A stretch of 64,000 nucleotides of DNA from Centroberyx gerrardi. Its lineage: Eukaryota; Chordata; Actinopteri; Beryciformes; Berycidae. Below are positions 1-50,400 of the stretch, one piece after another. The notes beneath the pieces were generated by a model. That model saw nothing but the letters and a program-made list of their open reading frames with translations. It ran no database searches and had not been told where the DNA came from. Made by a program: the position numbers and the translations under genes. The DNA is taken from contig NC_135998.1 of the NCBI RefSeq assembly GCF_048128805.1, positions 14,855,656 through 14,919,655 of the forward strand, in the 5' to 3' direction. Every line of letters begins with the position of its first letter. The stretch's first letter is position 1.

Positions 1-1403
1 CAGGTGTCCAGAGAAGAAGCTGCTGGTGCTCAGGCCGTTGGTCCCTTCGCTGGCCTCCAGCCACACCCTGTCCCCCTGCTCCAGCTGCAGCACTGTGTCT
101 CCCGTTGACGTTTGGCGACCGCCCTGGAAAACCCTGTAGCTGTGCAGCACCAGCTCGCCGTTGCGCCACAGGTCCACGCTTCCCACGGTGATGAAGGACG
201 TGCAGACGAAGCTGAACTGATAGACGCCGGGGATGGCGCAGGTGAACTGCCCCGACCTTGTGCTGTAGTGGTTCTGTCCGTTGTAGATGATCTGACGGAA
301 ATGTATGATTTTATCTGAAGAGGGATTGTAATCGCCCAGTCGGACAGAAAAGGCAGAGTGTAGCTGCGTTGCATTGACGGTGGCGGATGCTGGTCCAGGG
401 GGGCCTCTCATTCCTGTGGCACCTGGGGAGAAACACACAGGCAACGTCACATTCAGACTGAAGGATGGATTATGATTTTGTCGTATACTGTTGAATTTGA
501 ATCTTTTGGGGGTTTTTTTGGGTGCTTTATATGTTGCGTCTGGTCTGGTTTTTGAAAAATTGAAAAGAAAAAGAAAAAATTGATATAAAAATAAAAAAAA
601 TGATGACACAAAGTATAAAAAAAGAAAGATAGATTACAAAAGACTGTTAGAAGTAAGATGCCGTTGTTATGTAAGCTGATGTCATCCCGCCTTTATTACT
701 GTAATGCCCTGTTCTCCTGTCCCAATCAGAAAGCCATAGTACTGACCCAGATTCTACAGTACTCAGATGAAAACTAAAATATAAATCTCTGGACCATATT
801 GCCCCAATTTGTTAGTTTTAGAATTGACTTCACCCCTCGGTCTGGATCCGAGCTATACTGCAGGTCTTTTAACCCCTTCTGAGCTGGAGTGAGCTGATCA
901 GGCCTTTGCTCTCCAGCCCCTCTTTAGCAAAGTGTCATATTTTCACAAATCACCTCTTTTACAGACAGGCTTTTATAGTTTGTTTTTAATCATTTTTCAA
1001 CTTAGATTCTTTTTGTTGTTTTATTTTTCTTCAACCCTGTGTGATTAATTAACATCTGGCAAATTTCACGTTTCTAAACTTTTGTTTATTATTGTTGTGT
1101 TGTCTGTAAAGCACTTCATAGCTCTGTTCTGAAAAATGCTAACAAAATAAAGTTTATTATTATTATTATTCAATATCATCATTCATTCATGTTCAATCTC
1201 TGTGACTTCATATCATTTGTATTATTTGGAAGTTTGGAGCCATTTAAAAGACATTCAGTATATGTACAGTGCATATACATCTTTTAAATAGATAAATAAA
1301 TACTAACATAAATAAAACATAACATATTTGAATTGACTACCTCGTTCTCCTGGGGGTCCTGGTGGTCCTGAGGGTCCTGCTGGTCCAGGAATGAGTTCAC
1401 AAT
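1..1403 (-). CDS. Collagen-like exon plus C1q-domain exon, apparently the 3' part of the peroxidase gene
   Basis: Exon 1403-1341 (63 nt) encodes CELIP followed by Gly-X-Y repeats. Exon 422-1 adds more repeats, for nine triplets in all ([15 protein letters not shown], then GATGMRGPP), then a C1q domain with the typical [13 protein letters not shown] core and SSFFSGHL near its end. Only the last few residues and the stop are missing at the left edge. The last peroxidase exon (donor after 1879) ends one base into a codon. The collagen exon begins with the two bases that complete Asp and ends in phase 1, as the C1q exon requires. No start codon or signal peptide for an independent C1q gene is seen between 1404 and 1878. 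The alternative is a separate C1q gene whose first exon I failed to find. C1q trimers bind pathogen surfaces or other ligands (family knowledge). Confidence 0.8.
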
Positions 1404-2617
1404 CTGCATAGCAAGAGGATGCAGAAGTTTAGGTTATTTAACGTCATACTTAAAAGGAATTATATTTAAAAAATAAAAAATGTGCTGGAATGAATGAACC
1501 AGTTCTTATTTGGAGCAAAGACACCTTCCACCAAGATGACAGAATTTGAGGAAAACAGAGACTGTATGATTTGAGTGTGTAAATTTGGTCCATTACATGA
1601 CAATTACCAGTAGGTGTGATTTCATTATTAAATTATTATTAAAAGTTGATCATAGCATTGTACCAATTAGGACCATATAACGTAGAAAAAGCAGCACTGA
1701 ATCTGACCTCATTTCCACTGACTTCATCACAGTTAGAACCTGGGCCTGCAAGACCAAACACCACATATGAAGCATGATTTTCATACAAGTGATTGGTAAA
1801 GAAATCAATTGACCAATTTAGTGAAACATATACTGTGTGAATGTAAAATCAAAATAGTTTCATGCAGTGCTGTTTCACCTGAGTTCTCTGTGCAGGGTCT
1901 CTCTCTCCAGGCCGACAGGTCCAGGCGCCGGATGTCGGTGCAGCGGACGCGCCTGTTCCTTCTTGACAAGGCATTGAAGGGGTTTTGGGGGACGTTGTTG
2001 ATGCCAGTGTTGTCACAGATGATCTTGGACAGGCTGGCGGAGGACAGTGCGGACCTCTGTCTGGGGGTGAAGATGCCTCGGTTCTCATACCACATCCTGC
2101 AAAGTGCAAAGAAGAGTAGAGCGGAAAGAGATTAGTGCCAGCAGAGATTGCATGAATGAATTACATACATTTAATTTAGTGATATTGTCACAATTAGAAA
2201 TTGAATGCGACTTTTAGTGAATTTAACTTTCTAAACTGAATAAAAATTAATTTCAAATTCAGATTTCTCAATTCAGTTTCAGTTTTCTCAATTCAGATTC
2301 TGCTTCCGGAGACACACGGCCAACAGCACACACTGCTCACTTAGCCAACCACAAGCCATGTGGCACTGTGGCTTGTTCATCTCCTCAGCCAATGAGTGAG
2401 TCTTATTCTCCTCACTTGGTGAAAAACGCTACAAATTGTGTCCTAGCTAATGTACTGGGCAGCAGAGAAGAGTGAGTCAAAACCCAAGGAATAAAGTCCC
2501 ATGTGTCCGGATGTGTGTCTAATGAGACACAAAAATGAATATTATTCCATAGAGTAGGACTGATAAAATGCATATATTATGTCTGCATGTATGTATTCTC
2601 TTTCCCTCTCACACACA

Positions 2618-2678
<61 letters not shown>

Positions 2679-5600
2679 TTAATCACCTGTCACCCTGGCG
2701 GATCTTCTGGAACTGGGTTCCGATGAGGCAGGCGAACAGAGGCCCGACGCGGCCACCGCGGACGAAAGGCTCCGCTACACCTCCCAGCCAGACGTCGATG
2801 TTGGCAGGCGTGCCATAGAGCTGCAGCAGCCTACGGGCCAGGAGTGTGTTGTTCAGGACCCGGCCCAGCTCCGCCTCATTCCTAGGCTCAGACAGCCTGC
2901 AGAACTTGCGCCATGCATTGTAGCCTAGTGGAGTAAACAACAAACATTACATAAATATACAACGAAGAAAAGAGATGAAACATCTGGCAGGATTAACAGA
3001 TGTTTATGCACTGTTAAATGTCTGAGTGAGGCATGTACCAAGCAGGCCATGGTCACGTCCCCTCTGCATGTTGAGAGAGCCCAGGTCCAAAGCCAGGTGC
3101 TGGACGAACTCAAAGAGCCGCTCCCTCAGAGCATCGACCATCATGTGATCCTGAGTGTTCAGTTTAGCTGGTCGACCAATCAAACCACGGAGCAGAGGGT
3201 CAATGCCACCTACACATGGAGAGACAGAAGAGCATGTTAGGTGACAGTTTTATACTGAGTAACAGAAAGACGTGCAGTTATCACTTTACCACTCACCCTC
3301 AAAGACAATTCTCCAGGGGGCGAAGAAGGCCTTGAACAAGGGGACACTGGGAAACTGAGTATTCTCTCTGTAGTTTGCATCCAGACGGGACAACATAGGC
3401 TGGATGGCCAAGTGGGCGAAGCGGTATGCTGCTGTTGCAAACACATTGGAAATGCTGGGGTCAACGTTGGGATTATAGCCGGGGTAGCGGCCGAGCTGTG
3501 TGCGTATCACTTCGTCGCCCACAATATGCGGCAGATAGTCCCGGAACACAAACACCTAGGGGAAGAGATGTTTTTGGTGTTAAGTCATTAAGGTGCAGTA
3601 GTACAGCATCAGACACACATTGGAGATTTAGATGTAAATATGAGTGCTGATAGAGCTGGTTCTGTTACCTGTGTGTAAGCACCCATGATCTTGCGAGCCT
3701 CCTGGTAGAGTGTCTCACTGTCCCACTGTGGGTTGAGTCTCCGCAGTTCACGGGCCAAGCGGTTGTGCTCACGCATAAACAGTGTGTGAATAGACGTCAG
3801 GGCGATGTTCTCATCCACGCGGACATCACCTGAAAGACGGAAACACACATAAAGCAAACAATGGCAAACAGCTGTTTTCACAAGAAAGCTGCCATCAATC
3901 ATTACAACCCATTTGCATCCTGCCAACAAGTCAACAATAGTATACTTTATTTGTGGTGTTAATTTCTTCTTCAGATTAAAAGGTTTTATTTTCAATCTCA
4001 GGCACAAGCAGAGCTCACACTAACCTGCAATGAAACAGGGCACTTCTTGCGCATTTGAGTTGTTGGTGACTCTTGCGCGTGTGGCGCACATGTTCGCCTG
4101 GAGAGTGCTGAAGGGCAGCAGCTCTCGTCCAGAGTCTCTGAACTTCTCGTTGACACGCAGCAGGCCTTCATCGCTGGTGAGATTGCGAAGGTTAAGCGCT
4201 AGCTGTTCCTCGGAGCCATACACCTGGCCAAGATCCAGGAAGGCTGTCAGAGCGTTGATCTGCTCCCTCTTGTTGGCCTCTCCACCAAAATTAAAGGCTG
4301 AGAATCCGGTTCCACAAACGGGTGCTGATCTGAATGTGGGGATGCAGCTGTCCGGGCCAGTGGGCAAGCGGGGGTCGCCGGGAGGAATCTGTTTGTATAA
4401 AAAACAAAAGCCAGAGGTTAGGGACAGGATCTTTTACTGAAAACACAGTGGGGGAACGTAATGGAAAGTGTCTGAGCTTGGCTGTGAGCCGTGTCACCAA
4501 CCGGAATGGGGAAGCAAGGCTCAGTGCGCTCGCAGCTCTCGTCACAGTTCACACCGTTGCTGAAGGAGCGGATGCTGGGTGAGAAGGGTGTGAAGGTGAG
4601 ATCGTGGTCGTTCCACTGGCCGAACAGGGTCACCATGTGAGTGAACTCTCCGTCGCTGACCACGCCCGTATCCGTTGTGCTTAGGATGTTGTTGGAGACC
4701 TGTCTGACCTGGAGGAGAATTGGTTGGTTATATTCTCGATAGTCAAAATGTATTTTACTCAAGGCGATAGTCAGGTATTTCAAGCGTACCAGGGGGAGCA
4801 TGAAGTTGTTGAACGTCCGGTTCCTGTCCCACCCTATTGGTTCGGAGATTCCATCATCATACTTTGCAGGCAGCCAGCGGGTGAAAGGGGTGTTGGAGGC
4901 TCCAAGACGAGGTTTCTTTCTAAAAGCAAACATGAAAGATCGACATTTGGAAACTTCACTTGAGAAACCTGAGGGAAATGTACACATCTTCTGCGGTGTG
5001 TGGCCCAAGATGTTTAGATCTATTGCACAAACATTTCCTCTGATTGTAAGCACCACTCAGCCTCCCTGACTCTCAGTCATGAACAGTGTTGGGGGTAGCG
5101 GGTTACATTTCATACGGTACTCAGATTACATTTTTGTGGTAACAGGTAACTTGATGCGTTCATTTTTCAATTTATGCAATCAGTTATGAGTTACCTTCTA
5201 AAACTTGCATTTCATTACTTTTATTATCCTTTAAAATGGTTACATTTTCAGGTCAAATCAAAAAGAAAAAAAAATTTAAGTATTGCACTACATGACCAGC
5301 AACACAACAATAAACTTCATAACTTGAAATATTTGCATTACTTTGAACTGATCGAAGAAAAGGAACATTAGGAACATTATTGCTAACTGTAAGCTGTGCA
5401 TTGGAGAATTGAAGTGTGTTGTGTTGTGAGCGCTATCTGCTGTTTAGTTTGAGACCAGGCAAGATCAAGGCTCTGCTTCACTAGTTCATCGTATATCAGT
5501 GGTGCCCAAATAAATGAAAGCTCCCTTGCCTTTCAGAGGTTGATGTTTTCTTTAGATAACAATAGATTGTGTACTCAGTTCTGCACAATAAGAGTGAGGT

Positions 5601-7397
5601 CATCAGCAGAAGGTATTTTAAAGTCACATTTTTAAGTGAGTAACTTGAAAGTACTCCAATAAGTTAGTTTTAATAAAGACTAACTTAGTAAAGTAACTAG
5701 TTACTATTTAGGACAAGTAACAAAGTAAAGTAACTAGTTAGTTAGTTTCAAAAGTAACTTTCCCCAACACTAGTCATGAAATAAACAGATTCTAGCCAAG
5801 TTTCCATTAATCCAACATGAATTATAATAAAAACACTGCATGCATGTTTAAAAATGTGCTTTTTTTGTTTCCTTTTTTTTTTTTAAATGTGTGCTTGCTT
5901 TTTAAAAAAAACTGAAAGTGAGCAAAAGATATTAAAGAAATATTAAGTAAATTCAAATGTAATATACCGCCCAAGAAAGTTAGAATAACGTGCTTGGTCA
6001 AAAGGGAGTGTTTTGAGAAAAGGACCACTTTAGATTTCATATTATATAAAAATGCCATAAAAAGTTTTGCTCATTCATCTAAATAAAAGCTATACAGGTT
6101 TTCATTGATCAATATGTTGTCCATATAATGAAGCTACTGACGTTATAGGAACAAAATATCAAAAACTGATACTTGGATTAAAAAATCTTAAAAATGTAAG
6201 CCTGTCTCATGTCATAATAACATTGTTGCTCTTACAGGTTGTTGCAGACGCTGGTGGCTGTGCGATACTTGTCAAGGTTTTGGGTTGTGCGGCAGGATGG
6301 GATCCTGATCCGACCTGCACATCCGGTGATGGTGGTAAGGCTCTTCAGCTGCTCAGCCGTGAGTAAATCTGAACGTGAGAGACAGATTTAGAGGATTCAG
6401 TTTGTGCGTGTCTGTTTTCATTTTTATGTCAAGTCAAGTCAGTTTTTATTTGGCTCACACATTACGAAACCGACACCTCCAACCTTTGACCCTCAATGAG
6501 AACAAGGAAAAATTCCCACAAAAACAATGTGTGTGTGTCTGCCCCTGAGTGTGTATGTATTATGCTGGTGTGCGCATGCTTGTACTAAATTCACTCCTGA
6601 CCTGTCGCATTGAGGGAGCGTTTGTGCACGCGGTGGACCTTGTCGTGCAGCAGTCGGAGGGTTTGTGCCATGTAGTCTGCAGACCTCACTGCTGAGCGCG
6701 TGTCTCCACGGGGCTGCTTCATGAGACGGAGGATGTCGTGAGGCTTCACCACCTCCCTGCGCACTCTGCTGAGACTCCTGACAGAGGAAGAGTTACATAC
6801 GTGGACACATGGTTAAGGTCCCAGAAATAGTGGGGGGATTCTTTCTTTTGTTTTTCTGAGAAACTGACACCAGCCTTTTGTGAGCATTTGTTACCAATGC
6901 TGGCACAAATCAATTGGCTATGAATGGGTCAAAATTGCATACAAGACCTTTCAAACAGTTCTATTATTCTTGCAATTACTAAAGCTAAGGAATTATACTG
7001 ATACTATATATACTATGTGGGATGAAGTAAGCTATAAGGTTGACTCACTCTTCTCTGGAGTACTTGTACGCATCATCGACAATTCTCTTTGCTTCCTCAA
7101 AACAACTTTTGAGGTAAGGACTGCCGAGAGTTTCCCCTGCAAATGAAAAGAAACAGAGATATGAAGTTGATCATCATATGACAAAAGGATTTGAAACTTT
7201 AAAGTTGGGTATGTCATGGTTAAGGTCAAGACCAGAGCAGGTTGATATGCAGTGATATAACTTTACAAATTCAGGCATGATTGGGAATAACAATTTTAGA
7301 AACCTGTCAATTGCATAAAGGATGTACCTGATGGTTTGGAGTGACTGGGCACCAGGCAGAGGCCCAGAGTGAGAAGGACACAGAGCAGAAGCTTCAT
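1..7397 (-). CDS. mpx: Myeloperoxidase/eosinophil-peroxidase-type heme peroxidase with C-terminal collagen-C1q tail (3' end off window)
   Basis: Secreted or granule heme peroxidase that oxidises halides with H2O2 in granulocytes (family knowledge). Coding exons, minus strand: 7397-7328, 7136-7049, 6777-6602, 6368-6236, 4919-4790, 4708-4502, 4388-4025, 3829-3669, 3555-3297, 3209-3039, 2924-2687, 2096-1879, 1403-1341, 422-1. All have GT/AG sites and compatible phases, giving 900 codons to the window edge. Residues 1-20 form a signal peptide. The distal heme motif GQWNDHD holds Gln230, Asp233 and His234; Arg393 and Glu396 lie in DVRVDEN; the proximal ligand is His491 in FAHLAIQP. The position of the MPO-specific heme-linking Met is Asn397, so the protein is EPX/LPO-like there. 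The peroxidase part is about 738 aa, close to human MPO (745). A non-coding first exon is inferred at about 7640-7587. Family assignment is firm; the choice between the symbols mpx and epx is less so. Confidence 0.93.
645..1170 (+). mobile_element. 3' end of an L2-type LINE
   Basis: The left part still encodes a decayed RT C-terminal motif (SRLYYCNAL). The right part is an AT-rich 3'UTR with the aaagcactt...aaataaagtt tail ending in (TTA)n. It lies in the intron between the collagen and C1q exons, antisense to the host gene. LINE class from recalled fish consensus features. Confidence 0.6.
1404..1878. other. Intron between last peroxidase exon and collagen exon
   Basis: It contains no recognised gene. 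A 38-nt exon-like cassette lies on the minus strand at 1745-1708 with AG and GT borders; including it would break the collagen frame (see findings). Confidence 0.5.
2613..2675. repeat. (CA)n microsatellite
   Basis: A nearly pure CA tract in a peroxidase intron, ending 12 bp before the donor of exon 2924-2687. Confidence 0.95.
5084..5772. mobile_element. Non-autonomous hAT-type DNA transposon with 8-bp target duplication
   Basis: The 689-bp element has imperfect terminal inverted repeats (left cagtgttgggg; right end reverse-complements to tagtgttgggg). It is flanked on both sides by GTCATGAA (5076-5083 and 5773-5780), the 8-bp duplication expected of hAT transposases. No transposase ORF. It sits in the large peroxidase intron between exons 6368-6236 and 4919-4790. 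Confidence 0.85.
6421..6530. repeat. Short interspersed-repeat tail in a peroxidase intron
   Basis: The gtcaagtcagtttttattt segment resembles the 3' tails of fish SINE/LINE repeats. It lies between exons 6777-6602 and 6368-6236. Family not determined. Confidence 0.35.
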
Positions 7398-22096: not shown

Positions 22097-24420
22097 TATA
22101 TACAGTATATATAATAATAATGATAATAATAATAATAATAATAATAATAACTTTATTTGTATAGCACTTTTCTAAAAGCAAAGTTTACAAAGTGCTTTAC
22201 ATACAATAAAAACCCCAAAAAACAATGATGCAGAATTTACCACAATCAAATAAATAAAACAGTTGAATAATAAACATAAATAAATAAAAAATACCAAAAA
22301 AAGGAATAAAAGGTAATACAGGGGATAAATGGATACAACTAGAAAACGAACAGACATGCAACTAAACACAGATGCAAACAGATAAAAGTGAACGTGAAGA
22401 AGAAACACAATAACAAAATAAACGATAAAAAGGAGATACACTGCCATTCAAAAGTTCAAAAGTTTAAAAATTCCATACCCCCGAAAGGAACCAATGACTC
22501 CACCCGCCAAGGCAGCACCAAACCAATCAAAAAAGGCACAGCCAAGACACCGACAATGCCACAAACCACTGCCTCCACTCCAAACAACTGCTCCACTCCC
22601 CAAACCCCCCGCCCATCAAGAATACCCCACGCACAGCAATGACAGCCCCGCAGACCCCAGGCACTCCAGCCTCCAAGCCCCCGGGACATCCAGGGGAAGC
22701 CCCACCCCATGTCCCCTGCAGCACCCGACACAGGCACAACCGGCCCGCAGGGCAACCCCCACGGGCCCCACGATCAAGCCGCCCCCACAAAAGCCCGACA
22801 GGACCCAGATCAGGCAACCGCACTGGCCAATCCACCAGAGCAGAGCCATATACAGCTATGTTTCTCTTCGCTGAAGGAAACATGATTGCACAACTCTCGT
22901 CACTTGACCATCAAAGGAAAGGTCAGAATCCAAAAGCACTCCCAAATTACTGGCGGTATGTTTAATGTTGACAGATAAGCTTCCAAGATGACTCTGAGAA
23001 AAACTGATGGAATTTGGGGGGCCGATTAAAATGATCTCAGATTTAGCATCATTTAGCTGGAGGAAATTCTGTGTCATCCAGCATTTAATGTCATTGAGAC
23101 AAGCCATAATTTGGGGTAAGTTACCTGCTTCACCGGGTTTAAGTGGTACATAGAGCTGGGTATCATCTGCATAGCAATGGAACTGGATATTATGATGACG
23201 AATAATTTTACCAAGAGGGAGCATGTACATAGAAAACAATAGAGGACCTAAGATTGACCCTTGAGGAACACCACAAGTGAAAGGGGCAACAGAGGAAGAG
23301 GCCTCTTCAACTACAACCGAGAAAGTTCTGTCAGAAAGGTATGAGCGAAGCCAATCCAGAGTCAAGTCCCTAATGCCAACCCATTTTTCTAAACGGTTGA
23401 GTAAGATGTTATGGTCAACCGTATCAAAAGCCGAGCTCAAATCAAGGAGGATTAAAACTGAACAGGCACCTGAATCAACAGCAAGCAATAGGTCATTAGT
23501 GACCTTTACAAGAGCTGTTTCTGTGCTGTGCAGGGCCCGGAAGCCTGACTGAAATTCCTCAAAAATGTCATTTCTATTCATAAAAGTAATCAATTGTGAG
23601 GAAACAATCTTTTCAATAATTTTTGATAGAAAGGGTTACTTAGAAATTGGTCTAAAATGTTTTAGAACAAGAGGGTCCAAGGATGATTTCTTTAGTAAGG
23701 GTTGAACTATTGCATGTTTCAGGCTGGAGGGGAAAGAACCGGTGGATAGTGAGCTGTTGACAAACGAAAGAATATTAGGGCCGACAGTCTGGAAAACTTC
23801 TTTCAAGAACCTAGTAGGGATAATGTCAAGTGAGCAGGAAGAGGATTTCATGCCCACAATGGTTTCCTCTGAGGTCAGCAGAGAGATTTGATTAAAATGG
23901 GTCAACAAGGCAGAGGGTTCAAAACAGATACAGTGATCTCTAGGAATAGGGGAAATCTTGAGCCGGATTTCCTCTATTTTATTAATAAAATGGAGAAGAA
24001 ACTCTTCACATTTTTCCGGAGTGGCCTCAATCGGTTGAGAAGGAGGGGGGCTGATCACTGAATTAATGGTCTGAAATAGGACCCTGGGATTGTGCCCGTT
24101 GCTCACTATAAGGTTGGAGAAATAAGAAGTTCTTGCTTCCTTTACTGCACTTTGATAAGCGGACAATGCACCTTTAAGAGCGTCAAAAGACACCTTAAGG
24201 TTATCTTTTTTCCATTTGCGTTCTGCTTTCCTGCATTGCCTTTTGATGTATCTGGTATGGTCATTAAGCCAGGGCAAGGCATTGGGTTTGACAAGTTTTT
24301 CTTTAAAAGGGGCAATGTCATCCAGAATATTCAGACAAATTCTGTTAAAATCAGAGACTAAGGCGTCAGCAGTAGACTGATGCTGCTCAGAGGTATGGGG
24401 AGAGGACGCAGTTAAAAATA
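22097..24420 (-). mobile_element. 5'-truncated L2-clade LINE with nearly intact reverse transcriptase
   Basis: Reading leftwards from 24411: the endonuclease-RT linker (ALPWLNDHTRYIKRQCRKAE), then RT from about 23750 to 22870 with STETALVKV, LLDLSSAFDTVDH, GVPQGSILGPLLF and the catalytic YADD (in FHCYADDTQLY). One in-frame stop interrupts RT at 23638-23636 (PISK, stop, PFLSKIIEK), so it is inactive. The endonuclease is missing. The 3' tail 22440-22100 ends with caaataaagtt(att)n. An odd GC-rich segment, 22455-22860, sits between RT and tail. Confidence 0.9.
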
Positions 24421-29618: not shown

Positions 29619-32055
29619 TGAGGGTTATGGCTGTTTTTGGTTGTGTGCTAAACCACTTCCTACTTTCTCTCTTGTACAAAAGCTGAAATGAAATTTCACA
29701 GGCTGTTTCTGACCTCAAAGATCCTCTTTCCTCTGAGCCAGAGTTAACATCTGAGATATTAAAAAAGAACTTGAATTTCTTCATCTCTATCACCTTAATT
29801 GGTTACTTTCAAAAACACATCTTTCATTTCACCACTCAGCTGGAGGACTGTTTCGGTGAAGACTGTGGGTAACTGGGACCAGCGATGTAGCGTTTAATAA
29901 CAAAAGCGGGAAAACTATGACCTCCAGTCAGTGATTATCATAAGGAGAATATCCACCAGTATAAACAAATATCAATTAAACTTTCACAAAAGCATTCATT
30001 TATGCTTTTTTCCTGTTAAAAGACTATGTGTACTATGAATTTGGATCATTAAGATTTATATCAGCCTAAATAAACTCTATTCTGCAAATTAAAAGATGAG
30101 TAATTTGAATTTACCAAACTACATCGCTGGGTGGAACTCCCTGGAATAGCTGTTTGGCCTCAGCATGACAAGAAAACCAGTCTGCTTTAATGAGACTTGG
30201 TCTGAGGTTAATACTAAATATCTAAAATGTATTCCCAAGCTGAAAAGGTTTAAGAACCCCTGCTCTAGATGACAAAACCCAAAACCTGCACCCCTCTATT
30301 CCAGAGAAAGATGATGGATGGCCTTGAGAGTCTGTGCGACCGCCTGCCTGGGCCGAGCGGCAAAATCTGCAAAGACGAGGTGGAGAAGATGTTTCCGCTG
30401 GCCATCACCTTCCTGACTGCAGCTCTTGTAAGTTGGCGGGCTGGAGTGATTTTCCCCTGGGCTGGGATTCCCAGAGCAATATAAGGAGTTAAATAATCAG
30501 TGTTCCTTGTTCTCTGCACTTCCTGCGTGTTTACAACGCTTTTGAGAAGTCTGTCATAAAAAAAGATAAATGGCCCTATTGGTTCAATCTCCTTCTCTAT
30601 AGAAACCAGGCCAGGTCTGCACCATCCTCGGGCTTTGTGGCTCCCACTCATTTGACAAGCAGGAGGAACAGCTGATCCGATACGTCCAGGAGCGACTTAA
30701 GGCCGCTATGGTAGTTCAAGAGGTCAGTTAAGTAGCAGCTGTAAAGAAGAAAAAAAACAGAAAAGGACAATATCGTATATGTGGCATGGCCCCAACTTTC
30801 TCCTGCTTTTTTTTTATCTATGTTTTGAATTCAGATAAAATCTTCTGCTGTTGTCTGTCTCTGATCTGTATTTTGTTTCACGATACGTTTATCTCTTCAC
30901 CTCTGCCCCCGACTCCCACTGCTGCTCGTGCCTGTCAAGCAGGTGCAACCCACATCACAATGTACCTTCTGCATATTTCTCATCAAGACACTGGAGAGCA
31001 TGCTGCCAAAAGAGAGGACAGAGGTGAGTCATACTCGTACAATGAAGACACACGCAAACAAACAGTGTCTCTTTGTCCCGTTGCACACCCACACAGACAC
31101 AAACACATAATTGCCACCAGACAGTATTGCGTGTTTGTCACAGACTTGCACGCTCACTGTCCTCCCTACTTTACATCCTGCTGTTTTGCAGAGTGCTGTG
31201 ATTGAGCTGCTGGAGGAGATCTGTGCCATTTTGCCCTCCTCCTACCGACAGGAGTGTGAGACCGTGATTGACAAGTTTGGTAAGACGCTGCTGGACCAGC
31301 TCCTGAGCTACGCCACCCCCAAGACCATCTGTGCCCTCATCCACATGTGTAAGGGGCAGGAAGCGGCTCTCATTGGTGAGTCAGCTCGGCTGCTTCCCCC
31401 CCGCTTTCAGACTCTGCCAGTCAAAAGTTTAAACACACCACATTTTACGTTATTTTTACTATTTTCCACATTTTAGAATAATAGTAGAGACATCAAAACT
31501 ATGAAATAACACAAATTGAATTATGCAGTGGCCAAAAAAGTGTTAAACAAATCAAAACTATCTTGCCTTGATGGAAAGGCAAAGGCTTTGGAAAGAAATT
31601 CATATATCAACTTTACTATTTATATTATATTATGTCTTAAAAAAACTAATTTCAAGCATTTAAGCATAAGCCTTTAGATCACAATGGCTTTAAGAAAATG
31701 AAAAACAAAGTACATTCAATCAGGTGCATTTAAGAGTCTGTTACAAATAAGCATGAAAAGAACCCCACACATAGTATCGGCACTGTTTCATTCAAACAGC
31801 TTTCTTTTTATTTCTTTCTCAGACAAAGCTCTGCAGGACCCTTGCACTTTGACAAACTACAGGTGCAGAGACTTCAAGACGGCCCTCAGGTGCAGGGTAA
31901 GCAACAGCAATTTGGTTGTGAAATTGCGTTAAGCTTTAAGAAGTAGCTCAGTAGCAATGGATTTTTTTTTTTACCTATGCCAACTATGTTCTATGCAGAC
32001 TGTGTCCTACTGTCAGAGATTTGCCTGGAAGGCGCTCCCTGCTTTGAAACTTTAA
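28162..32055 (+). CDS. sftpb: Surfactant protein B-like saposin-domain protein
   Basis: Secreted lipid-binding saposin-fold precursor. Exons: 28162-28231, 28412-28470, 29224-29298, 30305-30427, 30603-30722, 30943-31023, 31192-31375, 31823-31896, 31999-32055. All phases agree; 280 aa. A further in-frame Met pair (28177, 28180) gives the shorter start MMDPLKFALLLF, a signal peptide; the real start is undecided. Saposin-B domain 1 (residues 44-122) has its six Cys as C..C, C...C, C.....C (NSCQDC, SLC, KIC, QVC, GLC). Domain 2 (150-230) has SQCTFC, EIC, QEC, TIC, HMC. A C-terminal saposin-A-like motif follows (DPC...YRCRDFKTALRC...YCQRFAW). Adjacent mat2a mirrors human chromosome 2, favouring sftpb over prosaposin. 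Human SP-B is longer, with an N-terminal saposin-A and three saposin-B domains. Confidence 0.88.
29555..29615. repeat. (CA)n microsatellite in an sftpb intron
   Basis: CA tract with CCC interruptions at its left end. Confidence 0.95.
31418..31570. mobile_element. Tc1/mariner-type transposon end
   Basis: Starts agtcaaaagtttaaacacac and continues with the ttagaataatagtagagac and aaaaagtgttaaacaaatc blocks of a common fish Tc1-like element. It lies in the intron after exon 31192-31375. No transposase. Confidence 0.6.
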
Positions 32056-38345: not shown

Positions 38346-41300
38346 TCAGTATTTGAGCTTCTTGGGCGCCTCCCATGAAAAGACCTCACGGCCGAAGTGG
38401 CCATAAGCTGCTGTGCACTGGTAGATGGGCTTCTTCAGGTCAAGCTCCCTGGGGGAGAGAAACAATGACTCAGTGGTAAAATTGGAAAATTGAAACACAA
38501 GTTTGTTACCAAAACTGTGAAATTTGATACTGCACGATACCTGACGATGACTCCTGGACGGAGGTCGAAGTTCTTCTTCACAATGTCCAGCAGCTCCCTC
38601 TCACTCCTCTGGGACGTCCCATAGTGGAAGATGGAGATAGAGAGGGGATGGGCAACTCCAATGGCATATGACACCTAAAACAATTTTCAAAGTTTATCCA
38701 CAAACATAATAAAATTTAGGGCTGGGTAAGGGGAAAATAAATAAAAATCAATACACCAACAATTATATCTCCCCACCCCGAACAGAGGAAACATAACCAA
38801 GTTGCAAGCCAGCACCATTTGCTTAACACAGTGACATGATCTTTAATCCTCACCTGGACCAGAACCCGCTTGCAGAGCCCAGCTTTCACCAGAGACTTGG
38901 CCACCCAGCGGGCAGCATAGGCAGCGGAGCGGTCTACCTTTGTGTAGTCCTTCCCAGAAAACGCTCCCCCACCATGGGCCCCCCACCCCCCGTAAGTATC
39001 CACAATGATCTTACGACCCGTCAAACCGGCATCACCCTGTGGGAAGGGAGAGACATATTAAGCAAAGGAGCCAAATATATTTTGCATAATTTTGTTCCTT
39101 TTTCATGGTTCAGTGTAAGCATTTTTCCACAGCTCCCTGAACTTTTTTCATGGGAATATAACTTGGTTACAAGAACTCAAAACTCTCAAGTGCTAAGTCC
39201 AGTGGTCTTTAGGTAAGGCCCTTAGCGACATGTGTTCACTGGAATTCCAATCCAAATCCCCAAGACTTGTCCGTTATGAAATGTGACCTGTTGAAACTGT
39301 AAATCCTCTTGTTGCGACTGCATGGTGTGCAGGGCAATTGAAGTGGAACAGATCTTTGGAAGGGGCTCGGGTCTCACCTGCGGTCCTCCAATGACAAAGC
39401 GGCCGCTGGGCTGCAGGTGGTATATGGTGTCATCATCCAGGTAGGCACTGGGAACCACAGCTTTCACCACTTGTTCCTTCAGAGAGTCACGCATCTCGTC
39501 CAAACGAACAACCTCATCATGCTGCACAGAGACCACAATGGTGTGCACACGCAAAGGGAGCATGGCGCCGCGATCCTGTCTGTACTGAACAGTCACCTGA
39601 AAAAAAAAAGAAGAAACGGGGAAGAGGAGGTTTACTATAATGTCACGTTAAGTAATGTAGACAGACTGGGGCGAGGTGCGGGTGCCGTTTCACTGCCTAA
39701 CCTGAGTTTTGGAGTCTGGTCGGAGCCATGGCAGCGTTCCATTACGCCGCAATTCGGCCATCTTGGCATTGAGCTTGTGAGCCAGGACAATGGTGAGTGG
39801 CATACACTCCTCAGTCTCATCAGTGGCATATCCAAACATCAGACCCTGTCACAGAGATGCAAAACGACCAGTCACAAACCATGTCATGAATAAAGCTCAA
39901 ACGAAATCACAAACTACGTTACCACCACATTTCTGGCTCCATCACCCAGCAGTGGACCATACACAAATGCAAAATATTCACGACTAAGAACCCTCCGACC
40001 TGGTCACCAGCCCCAACATCCTCCTCCTTGCGGTCCAGGTGAACGCCCTGAGCAATGTCAGGGGACTGCTGCTCCAAAGCCACCAGCACATTGCAGGTCT
40101 TATAGTCAAAGCCTGTGAATGAGAAGAATTGAGCCTCAGTTAATCTTTTTACAATTACACACCTCACCATGGCATTTTAGCCCCATGCACAGGTAGAACC
40201 AATAAGACTGCCGTGTTAAGTTTCCCAGCAGCACTACCTGTTCATACTCTTTGTAACATTTCTGTGTAGAATGCATTCACACATGACACGACGGTCGCGG
40301 ATAGGTGAGGAGAGGCCGGATGTTGCATTTAAGGTACACCAGGGAAAACATCACTTGTTCATTTTAGAAAAATGGTAAATGAGCAGCTCCTGCGGCCGGG
40401 TGCCAGGTTTCTCCTACTATTATTAATGTGCACAGTAATCTCTTCCTCCACTCAGATGGCTAGTAGTTTCCTTGTCTCTCAGAGACTGTCCAATTTCCAT
40501 ACATTTTGGAGAAAAAAATAAATAAAATAAATATCGCTCACTTTACCAGTTTTGGTTCACTCGCTCTACCTGAAAGCGCATTATGTAAGACTGTGCTTGC
40601 TTAACCCAGGAATCTTGTGGCTTTTGTTCACAAGATTCCTTGGAATTTCCCTAGGTCTTGATGGGGGAAATTGCCAAATCAATGTTTCTGCAATATTGCC
40701 TCGGGCTTCCGTTGACACATCGCCCTGAAACAGACACTTTGCAGAAGATTTCTGGGTGAAGCTGCATTTGTGAAAGGGGATTTAGATGCACATACACTAC
40801 CAGCTTTACTTGACACAGCCATCGCACAAAGCTCGCGCCCACTCACTGTCATTGCCATACCTTTGGAGGAGTCGTCATAGCCGATGTGCTTGATCGTCTC
40901 CCTCACGATCTTCTGGTAGTCAACGTTGGCCCTGGAGGTGACCTCCCCTGCCAGCAGGATCATCCCCGTCTTAGCAACAGTCTCTGAGGACACAGAGACA
41001 TACAGTGTGACAGGAGTTACAGCTACATGAGAGTAAGGCTGGAGTAGAATTAAACTGAGAATTAAGCACAAGTAGGTGAAAGGGGATTGAGCACACTGGG
41101 TGGTACACTGCAAACAACACATTGTAGGTTTTATGTTTTGAATAATAGGATTGAAGACTTTCAAACATTGAAACCGATTAACTGAGCTTTTGTTACAGGG
41201 GTTGACAGCATGTGAATTTAAATGTATTTTGAGGCTGTAAGAGGTTGACATTGATAAAGTTTGCAAACATTTACAGCTACAATATGCAATTTTTCGCCTT

Positions 41301-44300
41301 GAGGCAGGAGTGTATTAGTCCCACCTTCCTCCACCCCAACACCTGTCACTCATCTTGGTAAGCCATCTACTTTGAAACAGCATCTAGCCTGAGGCTGAGG
41401 TAACCATCATCTGTAAAGCCCACAACAGGTATTGAAGAAGCAAAAAGTGAACAGAGGCAATCTGCAATTAAAAACAATGTCCATGTTCACCCGTGTTTTC
41501 GAACAGGTCTTGTCTGCCGCACGTTTACCTTCGCTGTTCTTTAGTTTCTTACTGCTTTCCACCATCGTTGTTGTTGCTATGATTTCCCTGTTCTTCTACT
41601 AACTAACACAACCCAGCTCACCGCTGCCTCATATGACACACACTCACAGAAAATAGTATATGCCAATTTCAGGCAAATGAAATTGGCTCACAAAGGGTCA
41701 CAGACGGACACAGACTGATCATGTATAATATATCCTATTTATTGATTATTTTCATGTGAAAAAAGTTGCATATTGCAGGTTTTACTACATGACCAGCATT
41801 ATAAGTTGGTATGGTATTTTCTTCTTTAAAATCATGCTTACCATCTGCTTGTCAGAATCTATGTTAATCTACCCAAACATATCCGAAAATTACAGATTCT
41901 GAGTCTGAAGGAGGTATTTCGTACTCTTCACTTTTCAGCAAGACTGAAAAAAGTCTATTAAAATAAAAGTACATAGATATCAACACAGAGCATAAAACCC
42001 CTCACTGATTAGTCCACAAAACAGAGTGCACAGTTTATTTAAAGATGGGCCACATCAGCTGCAAAAAATCCTTAGGATAGTTTCTCATCTTAAAAATCCA
42101 CATACGTACCACATGCTACTTTGGCATCAGGGTCCTGCTTGAGGTGGGCATCCAGCACAGCATCACTGATCTGGTCACAAATCTTATCTGTGGAGTGAAA
42201 CAAAAGCAGGTTTAATGCATTTTATTTTTCAGAACTCCTACTGTGTTAGAGGCATCGTTTCCACATTTGTAATAAGTCAGAGGACTTGGAAGATAGTATG
42301 AGCAGCAGCTGCAAAATACTCGACTGGCAAAATTCCATTTTCACTGTAACACTCACAGCCCCGGGAGTAGTGGCACCAGTGGCCTTACTAGACGCCTCAA
42401 ACCATGTTACCTTCTACTGTTGCTAATGGACAAACCACAGACTGTAGAATATAATGGATAAAGTGACTGCGACGTCACCCACTGACTTTCGACTGAACTG
42501 TTTGACACCCAGGAAGTTTGGTTTCTGGGTGCCGTAATGTTTTATTTTTGGAACCAGAGTTTGCGCAGTGGAGTAAAAGGGTCGAACAGGTGAAGCAGAC
42601 AACTGCAGACAAGTCAGCCCAATTGGTCCCACAAGATAGGCCCATATAAGTGCCATCTTCTGTTGAGAGAACATCACACCAAACTTCATTCAAAAATCTG
42701 GCTATTTAATGTGTTGTTGATTATCTGCAAAGGTACATAGCCCTTAGAATATGACTTAAGACCTTTTCTGACGCATAGGGCCCCACTCTTCAATTTGGCA
42801 TATAGACACCATGCAGAACTTTATTTCAATCAAATCTCAACTTTTATAACTGGTTCTCACTGCTTGCTAGTGCCCAAGCTATGATTTATTTTGATGTTAC
42901 CTAACCAGAGTAGCACCAAAATCTGTATTGTACTCTAGTTTACGGCTCTTTATCACAGAGTTGGTTAACGTTAACTTGCTCATGTATTCAATGCCAACAA
43001 TGCGGACATGCCGGCTTGCATGAACTGAAATTCACAATATCTTCCTAATGGCATAATTATTAAAATAAAAAAAACAAAAAAACACACCATATGCAGGGAC
43101 ATTAGAACAAAATGAAATAAGCTATTCCGAGTGTAACTTCTAGTAGAAAAGAAAAATACTGACTGTATTTCTACATAGAAAGTGGGCCTCGGTCCCACTG
43201 ACTTGTATTGAGGTGGGTGGAGTTTCAGTTTGTACTGCAGCCAGCCAGTAGGGGGAAAAGAGGGATTGTCTCTCCCTGGACGCATTGGCTTCAAAAAACA
43301 TAAGAGGGCTTGTTTTGGACCCTTGAGATAAAAATATTCTGAAGTGCCAAGTGTAAATGAACACTTTAAAGCATACCATTAATAGCCTACACTCAGTACT
43401 GTACTGGTTTTTAATTTTAGGGCTTGAGGCTAACCAGAGACCGGAATGATTCAAGTGTCCTGAATGTGACTACCTACACTCACAGTTGAAACGCAGCCCC
43501 TGCTGTACCTATATTTAGGATGGTGGTAAGCCTATAATCTGTTGTATTGGAGCTGTCCCCACTCGCTACGATGAATAAGACTGAAAACTGCATTGTAATG
43601 TACTACAATGTTCCTCAATATTTTCTGTAATCAAATTTGATGCCGTTATCGACCTTTACATGGCAAGGTGCAATTTGTAAGCCCAATTTAACTTTTGTTA
43701 AATAGCTTATTTTGAATTACTACTACTACTTACTTTGGCTCACTGTCACTTATTAGGACAATCAATAAACTGAAATATTAATTGCAACTACATCAACTAG
43801 CAACCAAGCTTACTGGTTAGCACTTAAAATTCCCATAAATTTTCCAAACCGGCAAAAGATTATTTTGAAATTCCATGCCATTTCCATTTTCACCACAACA
43901 ATTTTGCTTCCAATTGTCAAACCACCGAGTAGGCTAATGTAATACAGACGACGTTACATTTTGATGTCTTCCCGGGAAACTGGGTCATTCAATACATTAC
44001 TGGAGATGATGTAACCGAGCGACCAGATAACAACAAACCAAGTCAGACGCTCCTGCACCTGCCGACCACATGTTACAGTAACACGCAAACTGTAATGATG
44101 CAACACCGCTAACGGTTTGCTAGCTCACCAACTTGTCTGTGTTTAGGCAACAAAAACAATCATTGCGTTAGCCGTGTTTGTGACTATCTTGTTAGCTACC
44201 TAGATATGTAATGTTAATCAGATGTATATGGACGAAACATTCCTCAGTTTTAAAATGCAGCTAAGTTAACAGCCTTCCGTTGGGCTACATTATGTGACTG

Positions 44301-47436: not shown

Positions 47437-50400
47437 TCATAAACTCGTTTCCCCTGCTCTTCCTATCTGTCTGCTCCCTGTGGGGCTAACCTGAGCTGGT
47501 CTGTGTTCACCCAGGATTGCGGCGATCAAGGCCTCGGGGGCCGTCACCCCGCTGCCTGGAGACACGGGGCTGCGGGGACTGAGGGGGCTGATGGAGGGCG
47601 ACGGGATGGTGTCGGGGGAGACCAGCCGCTCCTTCTTAGCGGCGGAGCAGGGTGAGCGGCTACACGTCTGGCCTTCTTTGGGGCGAGGACAGAGGCTGAG
47701 GCCCTGCAGGGAGGGAAGGGGGTTAGAGGAAAGAGCAGGGACGGCGGGGCTGCGGCTGCGCCGGTGGCGGTGGTGCTGTTTTCCGATTTTAGGGCTCGGG
47801 CTGCGGGAGCATGGAGCCAGCAGGACCAGGGTGCTGTCATCTTCTGAGCTGACGTCAGAGCTGTCGGAGCGACACACCGTGGGGCTGTGGACTGGAATCT
47901 GGATCTGTGGAGGATTTGAGAGGACATGGTCATATGAGAGAGGGCAGTGAAGAGGTATATTCATTCATTGAGACTTCAAAAGTGGGAGTAAGAGTCCTAT
48001 TTCTTTGGCAGTTGGCAGTTTTTACCTGGATGGGTAATGACACTCCAACAATAGTGTTCATGTTATTACTGTAGTAACCCAGGATGTATTCCCCATCATC
48101 CCTTGGCAAGTCCTCTTCTGTAAATGTCACCTGAGAGGAGAGAGGAAGAGAAAGAAATGAACTGTGAGTTGTGGCACAAAATAGAGAAAGACCTTCTGAA
48201 TTTGTGAAAGAGTATCCGGCACACCTGTGTCACATGCTCTCCCTTGGCCCACACATATGCTACATAATCCTTGTGATGTCTGAATCCAACCTGCGTAGAC
48301 AGATGACAGATGGCAATAATTATGAATATTGATACTGGCCACCAAATGATAAGAATTCATCAGGAGGGTGTTGAGCTAATCTAAAGCAAATCGCCCTGCA
48401 GATGTGAATTCTGTCTACAACAAAATCAGAATTACCTTGTATATTGCTACCCAGTCCCATGAGCTGCGCTGATAGGTTGATGCCACAGTGAATCTGACTG
48501 TAGCGTCGGAGACTTTAGTCCATTCCTTGGTTATCTGCAGTTCCACCAGGGGCATATCCACCTTGAATGGGAACTAGAGGAAAGAACGGAAAAGATAAGT
48601 AAAACCTAAGAAAACAAACCAAGCAAACAGAGAGGTGTCAACATATAAGACACTGGGTTACAGTGTGATAGACACTGTAAATGAAAATTAATTGATATTA
48701 AACTCACATGCAGTGAAAACAGGGCAGAAACAGGCTTATGGTCACTGATAGTGTAGCCCATGTGACTGCGGTATGCATGCTGTGTCACTTTAGTTGCCCC
48801 ACCCAACCATGAGGTCAGACCACGCTGCAGCGCTGCATTGTGGGTAGGAACCGGGGAGCCGGTGCGACGATGGCGCCAGAGAATGCGATCTGTCCAGGCA
48901 GGCTTCCTCTTCTTAGTGCTAACCGAAAAAGAAGTGAACGGGACAGACAGAAGTCATGGTAAGCAACAGTTCTACAGGTTTAAAGCCTCCTGGAAAAATC
49001 TCTTAAAACAGCGTTGTCATGGAGATAACTGGACAAACCTGGTGTCATATGTGTGAGTGCCCACATCAAACTTATAAGTAGGTGGGAATTTGAGCGGGCC
49101 TTCTATGAAGCCATCCAGGATGGACTCTGTGATTTTAGCCATGTTGAGCTGTTGAGTAGACAAATGATGGGGGGAAAAAAAAGAGGACACATGCCTGGAT
49201 GAGTTTCATACAACCTGACAGAAGGAAGGGTTCATTTTGTGTTAAAGCGCCCTCTGTTGGCACTGATGGTGATCAAGAGGCGAGCAGGTAAAAGACTTCC
49301 ATTAGGCTAATGTGCATAGGTAAATGATGAGATGCAAAAGCTGCCTCACCTGGTCTCGCTCCCACAGCAGAGGCAGCTTATTGCTGTCGATGGCGCATTT
49401 CACCACATGGATGTCGTAGTCTTCGATACGGAAATTTAGATCCCCAAACCAAAACACTACACTGGGGGGACAGAGGAAAGACAGGCGTTTCATTTACTCT
49501 AGGATGACAAAAAGGAGTCAACAACTGCTAATCTAAGTGGATACGATTACGACACTGAAAATCATGTCACCCACTCGTGGTCCAGCACGCCGGTGGCAGT
49601 CCCTCCCTCAAATTGCTGCTGCTGCAGAATGCTCTCAAAGTCCTCCATCCGTTGCTCCAGGTTCCTCATGTGAGCTGGCAGGTGACAGTTGAGAAAGCAC
49701 ACTGGGTGGCCGAACACTGTCATCCTCGCGCTGACACCCCCTTTATTCCCCTTGGAGCGAGCGGAAAAGGAAAGGGCAAGGAGAGAACACAGTGTGAAAT
49801 GGATTCCTGGCGCATAATGTTTGCATGTGACGTTAAAAACCGGCGCGGAGGCACGTATCGGCCGTAACGCCGCGCAGGACAAGAGGACGGTGTTTTGAAG
49901 CCAGTGAGTCACAGAACCAGAAAGCCAGACAGCCCCGCTGCTGCACTGACCTCAAAGAGAAGGAGACTGCACCAGCAGCAGCCAGGGGTGATGCTGACAT
50001 CAACATGCACGGGAAGGTCACACACTCACATATGCACACACACCCACGCACGCACGCGCCTGCTGGCAGGGAGCACACACCACCCCTCACCACCCACACA
50101 GACACAAACACACCCCCGTTTCACAAGGTGTTTAGTCTCTGCGTCTGCACTCTACAATGCGTGGCACATACCCAGTAGCCGCCAAGTCCTGTGCGTGTGC
50201 TTTCTGTCTGCACACCTCTCAGAAATGGAAGGTGGCAGAATTTAGAGAACACCAGCAGTAGCACTCCCTGCATTCGCTGGGACGCCACCTATAGGGATGG
50301 AATGGAAGAAAAACAACATGTAGGTTATTGATTAAACTATAGTCAGTTTATTTGCACATTTGTTATGATAAAAAAAAGGACAATACAACTATAAAATGAA

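Follow-up and report, generated by a model that had tools for sequence, protein, structure and literature searches.

A 64,000-nucleotide stretch of the genome of the beryciform fish Centroberyx gerrardi (assembly GCF_048128805.1, contig NC_135998.1, positions 14,855,656 to 14,919,655 of the forward strand; hereafter, the window) carries at its beginning a gene that, with high confidence, encodes a haem peroxidase fused to a short collagen-like stalk and a C1q domain. The gene lies on the minus strand, starts at position 7397, and continues beyond the window's start; its 12 peroxidase exons are bordered by GT-AG and contain no stop codon. Coding exon 1 (7328..7397) provides the start codon and an N terminus that, by eye, is signal-peptide-like and resembles that of P0001, the closest relative among the database matches listed (Centroberyx affinis, Beryciformes, "eosinophil peroxidase isoform X1," 904 residues). 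Exons 2 to 5 follow at 7049..7136, 6602..6777, 6236..6368, and 4790..4919. Exon 6 (4502..4708) encodes the distal GQWNDHD motif and is followed by exon 7 (4025..4388) and by exon 8 (3669..3829), where the motif RVDEN supplies the haem-pocket Arg and Glu as well as an Asn at the position of a Met specific to myeloperoxidase (MPO). The proximal His is encoded in exon 9 (3297..3555), and exons 10 (3039..3209) and 11 (2687..2924) lead to the last peroxidase exon, exon 12 (1879..2096), which ends with one base over. In this splice-consistent model, the acceptors at 6777 (among three) and 4708 were picked because the resulting protein matches P0001.

When spliced, the 12 peroxidase exons amount to 738 codons plus one base, up to a donor (GTGAAA) after 1879. 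The first-pass annotation of the window had placed a phase-1 donor here and joined it to two further exons on the same strand, and the coordinates, phases, and frame of these joins check out. The collagen exon (1341..1403; 63 bases) is flanked by AG and GT and is in phase 1 on both sides; the next exon (1..422) begins at 422 behind an AG, in phase 1 and in frame with the collagen exon, and encodes the last triplets and the C1q domain. This exon is incomplete at the window's start, and comparison with P0001 shows that about four residues and the stop codon fall outside the window; the in-window product of the peroxidase, collagen, and C1q exons is 900 residues long. An unspliced end, in which translation would run 24 codons past 1879 to a stop, was considered and rejected; it is absent from the six relatives compared, no dedicated search having been made.

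The splice model and the Pfam assignments agree on the product that had been proposed, a 738-residue peroxidase followed by nine collagen triplets and a C1q head. Residues 146 to 706 match the An_peroxidase family (PF03098) over its entire profile (1 to 530 of 530; E = 7.8e-183; 609 bits against a cut-off of 25), and residues 783 to 900 match the C1q family (PF00386) over positions 1 to 126 of 127 (E = 1.4e-26; 93.6 bits against a cut-off of 23.7). The stalk between the two domains consists of 27 residues, that is, exactly nine uninterrupted Gly-X-Y triplets, and scores 20.0 bits with the Pfam Collagen profile, under its cut-off of 27.2.

The nearest solved structures are those of human MPO (6bmt_A; E = 1e-224) and the eosinophil peroxidase (EPX) heavy chain (8ogi_B; E = 4.4e-170). 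The whole peroxidase part can be aligned to MPO, including the region ahead of the mature chains, and the haem-pocket residues, with the roles and MPO numbering that we presume for them, are all present: the distal Gln and His, the Arg, the proximal His with its Asn partner, and the Asp and Glu that link the haem, each kept in 150 to 152 of the 154 aligned sequences. By sequence, the gene is thus a haem peroxidase of the MPO/EPX/LPO group. The exception is the Met of the sulfonium link to the haem, which we take to be Met243 of MPO: the Asn found in its place in the window protein recurs in 146 of the 154 sequences. "Myeloperoxidase" is therefore the wrong family name, and the haem chemistry should be EPX- or LPO-like. 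The two proteins also differ at the C terminus. Human MPO ends two residues after a Trp-Arg-Glu that corresponds to residues 729 to 731 here, and is therefore without collagen or C1q, so that the contrast with mammals that had been drawn for the fusion holds for MPO.

To what extent fish gene models already contain the fusion had been left open, and a domain search of fish peroxidases provides the answer. A protein search with residues 600 to 900 (301 residues) yielded 589 proteins at an E value of 0.001, and a second search, started from the bowfin member, yielded 689; PF03098 and PF00386 were found together in every match listed, namely, in 120 of the best 120 from each search (counted by eye). 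The two listings combined comprise 153 different proteins, 38 of which were rescanned with Pfam, with both domains present in 38/38. Judging from their names, with Centroberyx and bowfin looked up, the organism-named matches listed all come from ray-finned fish, including bowfin, eels, bonytongues, herrings, carps, smelt, cods, and spiny-rayed fish. P0001 is 93% identical to the window protein over the searched part, and the 25 residues across the junction are the same in both. Teleost models named "eosinophil peroxidase" or "eosinophil peroxidase-like," of which P0001 is the best match, share with the window gene the two domains, their order, and the junction, with no basic difference; this gene looks like an ordinary ortholog. 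A salmon gill "eosinophil peroxidase-like" protein has been detected by proteomics (PMC8066739). No description of a peroxidase-C1q fusion was found in the literature searched; most subscription-journal papers were beyond the reach of this search, and the blank is therefore not proof of silence. The fused class is already present in public databases, under such names as "eosinophil peroxidase" or "myeloperoxidase-like," and appears to be unremarked rather than unique.

Most of the listed relatives appear to be predicted from genomes, which leaves room for the view that gene prediction has misjoined an ordinary peroxidase gene to a separate, adjoining C1q gene. In C1q genes, phase-1 joins often link three exons, one each for the signal, the collagen, and the C1q part. 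However, the join is also predicted in bowfin, eels, bonytongues, herrings, carps, and spiny-rayed fish, and P0001 carries the same junction letter for letter, which argues that the join is not due to chance. Furthermore, four entries (P0073, P0088, P0149, and P0150) that encode 859 to 894 residues come from contigs of 2674 to 3133 bases, which a coding region with 13 introns would exceed; these contigs are therefore read as spliced RNA, as they probably are, and a separate C1q gene is accordingly very unlikely. The first-pass annotation had named a signal exon of such a gene, between 1404 and 1878, as the finding that would speak for it. The scan of 1878-1404, which did not extend upstream of 1878 or to the relatives, gave 13 phase-compatible candidates of at least 10 codons, none convincing by eye; the hydrophobic ones overlap an exon at 1745 (see below) and have donors that look weak. 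A chance join of two genes was rejected on the combined grounds of the junction shared across fish and the contigs too short for introns.

The history of the fusion was approached through a tree of the peroxidase part of 153 of the 154 sequences (P0134 was excluded as too gapped), rooted on bowfin by choice. The window protein pairs with P0001 (support, 1.0) and lies inside a clade of 17 sequences with spiny-rayed fish (0.989); smelt extends this clade to 18 (1.0), and herrings and carps extend it to 42 (1.0). Centroberyx possesses a second fused gene, P0060, that sits outside the window protein's clade; the simplest reading is that the fusion is older than the split of the fused copies. Bowfin P0102 has the same fused architecture, albeit in a partial model with a doubtful linker, and on that architecture the fusion would predate the teleosts. 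It may be a gain of the ray-finned fish or an older feature that land vertebrates have lost.

The stalk is variable. Across the 154 aligned sequences, the longest Gly-X-Y run ranges from 0 to 18 triplets, and C1q is kept throughout. For example, models from the icefish group (P0013, P0016, and P0042) have Pro/Arg/Leu-rich repeat linkers of 162 to 206 residues at the stalk position, which may reflect expansion or mis-splicing, and in the pipefish and seahorse models P0105, P0119, and P0131, the regular stalk is replaced by Pro-rich or Tyr-Gly-Pro-Pro-Gly-Pro-Pro-Gly repeats. The 1132-residue P0081 (Muraenolepis) combines C1q and peroxidase with PF14484 and PF05729, which we take to be NACHT-type domains; this four-domain protein may be a merged gene model. 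Structure prediction was performed for P0001 as a single chain, and its C1q head is modelled confidently as a gC1q jelly roll.

The same jelly roll is found in adiponectin, collagen X NC1, and the complement C1q heads. In adiponectin, collagen X, and complement C1q, a Gly-X-Y stalk precedes the head. These proteins differ from the fish fusion in that no enzyme is attached to them and in that the fish stalk has only nine triplets. By analogy with them, the fused peroxidase could act as a trimer directed to a target, a mechanism that we favor slightly over its negation. The chain would enter the secretory path and take up haem, to become a secreted or granule enzyme whose haem domain would convert peroxide to hypohalous or similar oxidants. 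In the manner of adiponectin, collagen X, and C1q, its C1q domain would join three chains; the stalk, where present, would be a spacer between enzyme and head. Because the C1q domain would both join three chains and offer a binding face, several active sites could be kept near a target surface, the matrix, or trap DNA; a structure of the C1q head with deoxyribose exists (PDB 2wnv). We infer the expression of the fused form in C. gerrardi, its trimeric state, ligand, oxidant, and cell type from the known behavior of gC1q domains.

Several points weigh against the fused, C1q-trimerised enzyme. The C. gerrardi gene model was derived from genomic DNA alone, and both search queries included C1q, so that the ranking favors fusions; with such queries and the best 120 matches of each, the listings are silent on how frequent unfused forms are. 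The sampling was not aimed at unfused fish peroxidases or at gars, sturgeons, sharks, coelacanth, amphibians, and lampreys. Many relatives have a short stalk or lack one, and the mean identity to 150 relatives (the closest set aside) is 52% for C1q versus 68% for the enzyme domain. In the model of P0001, the peroxidase part is poor, with 492 of 904 residues at a predicted local distance difference test (pLDDT) score below 50, and the relative placement of the domains therefore cannot be read from it. Finally, in the accessible part of the report on the flounder leukocyte peroxidase PoMPO (PMC9908613), the only parts named for this 770-residue protein are a signal peptide and a peroxidase domain, and an antibody against it detects a band of 75 kDa, compared with 87 kDa predicted for the C1q-less form; a C1q-free form can therefore be the main product.

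The window itself offers a possible source for such a form. An acceptor at 1745, overlooked by the first-pass annotation, which otherwise had the fusion structure right, matches the phase-1 end of exon 12 and leads into a candidate alternative last exon (1640..1745, minus strand) of 35 in-frame codons followed by a stop, giving a peroxidase-only product of 773 residues. The gene could thus have two forms, with alternative last exons yielding either a soluble peroxidase (exon at 1745) or a C1q-tailed one (exons at 1403 and 422), and splicing would select between free and anchored enzyme. We give this model an even chance; it supplements the fusion and does not replace it. PoMPO resembles the short form in length (770 versus 773 residues) and, it appears, in its tail: the reverse primer with which it was amplified from complementary DNA (cDNA) encodes Gln-Asp-Asn-Glu-Val-Glu and a stop (PMC9908613), and the exon at 1745 reads Gly-Asn-Glu-Val. 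As reported, PoMPO differs from the C1q-tailed product in having the signal peptide and peroxidase domain only. Of the 153 relatives, 2 contain Asp-Asn-Glu-Val, namely, P0010 and P0011; each has it within the tail, and each belongs to the window protein's clade. When the tails of 151 relatives were compared with the exon at 1745 (P0106 and P0139, with fewer than 10 residues, were skipped), the six best were those of P0011 (Liparis; z = 6.4) and the icefish-group models P0042, P0013, P0017, P0053, and P0016 (z = 5.1 to 3.9). For each of the six, 0 of 300 shuffles did as well, and the match spans the first 12 to 13 residues of the exon.

However, the five models from the icefish group are closely related and hence not independent, the match of P0017 barely exceeds the first six residues, and the tail of P0010 reaches only z = 2.1, with 12 of 300 shuffles doing as well. 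When a 52-residue query containing the exon-1745 tail was used for a protein search, it gave 5 candidates and no relative at an E value of 0.001, and neither AATAAA nor ATTAAA occurs between 1639 and 1404. The genes reported next to PoMPO are nfkbil1, slc35e4, snx24, ggcx, gmcl1, fam136a, and pcyox1 (PMC9908613); none of them was recognized in the 10 of 433 window open frames scanned.

The exon at 1745 also bears on a pair of Cys residues just before the stalk, which the window protein shares with 15 of the other 17 sequences in its clade (P0008 included). An interchain disulfide through this pair was considered and dropped: a second Cys is encoded in the exon at 1745, too, so that an intrachain bond is equally likely. 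The Cys codons lie at 1894-1892, 1731-1729, and 1401-1399 on the minus strand; the collagen exon and the exon at 1745 each encode a second Cys soon after the border of exon 12, and the two exons may be duplicates in their first part.

The C1q tail could, alternatively, be a pro-piece that serves the assembly or sorting of the chain while it is being made and is later cleaved, leaving a mature enzyme without C1q. Mammalian MPO is heavily processed, which lends this idea some plausibility. The endogenous flounder protein, at 75 kDa, is indeed smaller than the 87 kDa predicted without C1q, but the reported flounder cDNA has no C1q to remove (PMC9908613). In addition, the core residues of C1q are conserved across the fish sequences compared, a pattern that fits a lasting function equally well. 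On balance, a cleaved pro-piece seems unlikely.

Returning to the fused enzyme with a lasting C1q head, the most far-reaching form of the proposal would be a self-aiming oxidant generator, in which a C1q-trimerised peroxidase binds microbes or trap DNA and the choice of last exons switches it between free and anchored states; we regard this combination as speculative and rather doubtful. The fusion matters beyond this proposal. Fish peroxidases serve as neutrophil markers and are treated as counterparts of human MPO or EPX. Should many of them have a C1q head, they may differ from the human enzymes in how they assemble, where they are located, and what they target, and fish knockouts may lose a binding activity besides the oxidant. 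The fusion would also allow a direct test of whether a recognition module on an oxidant source aids killing or spares the host.

Elsewhere in the window, other genes and one retroelement were recognized. On the plus strand, a saposin B-type exon (31111-31473) perhaps belongs to a relative of surfactant protein B or prosaposin, and on the minus strand, exons with the N-terminal, central, and C-terminal Pfam domains of S-adenosylmethionine synthetase (38719-41314) are MAT2A-like; in man, MAT2A and a saposin gene lie near GGCX. Exons of an endonuclease/exonuclease/phosphatase family 2 protein (48609-49951, minus strand) perhaps belong to an inositol polyphosphate 5-phosphatase. Finally, the minus strand contains a retroelement reverse transcriptase domain (22859-23635) that, by eye, resembles those of long interspersed elements.
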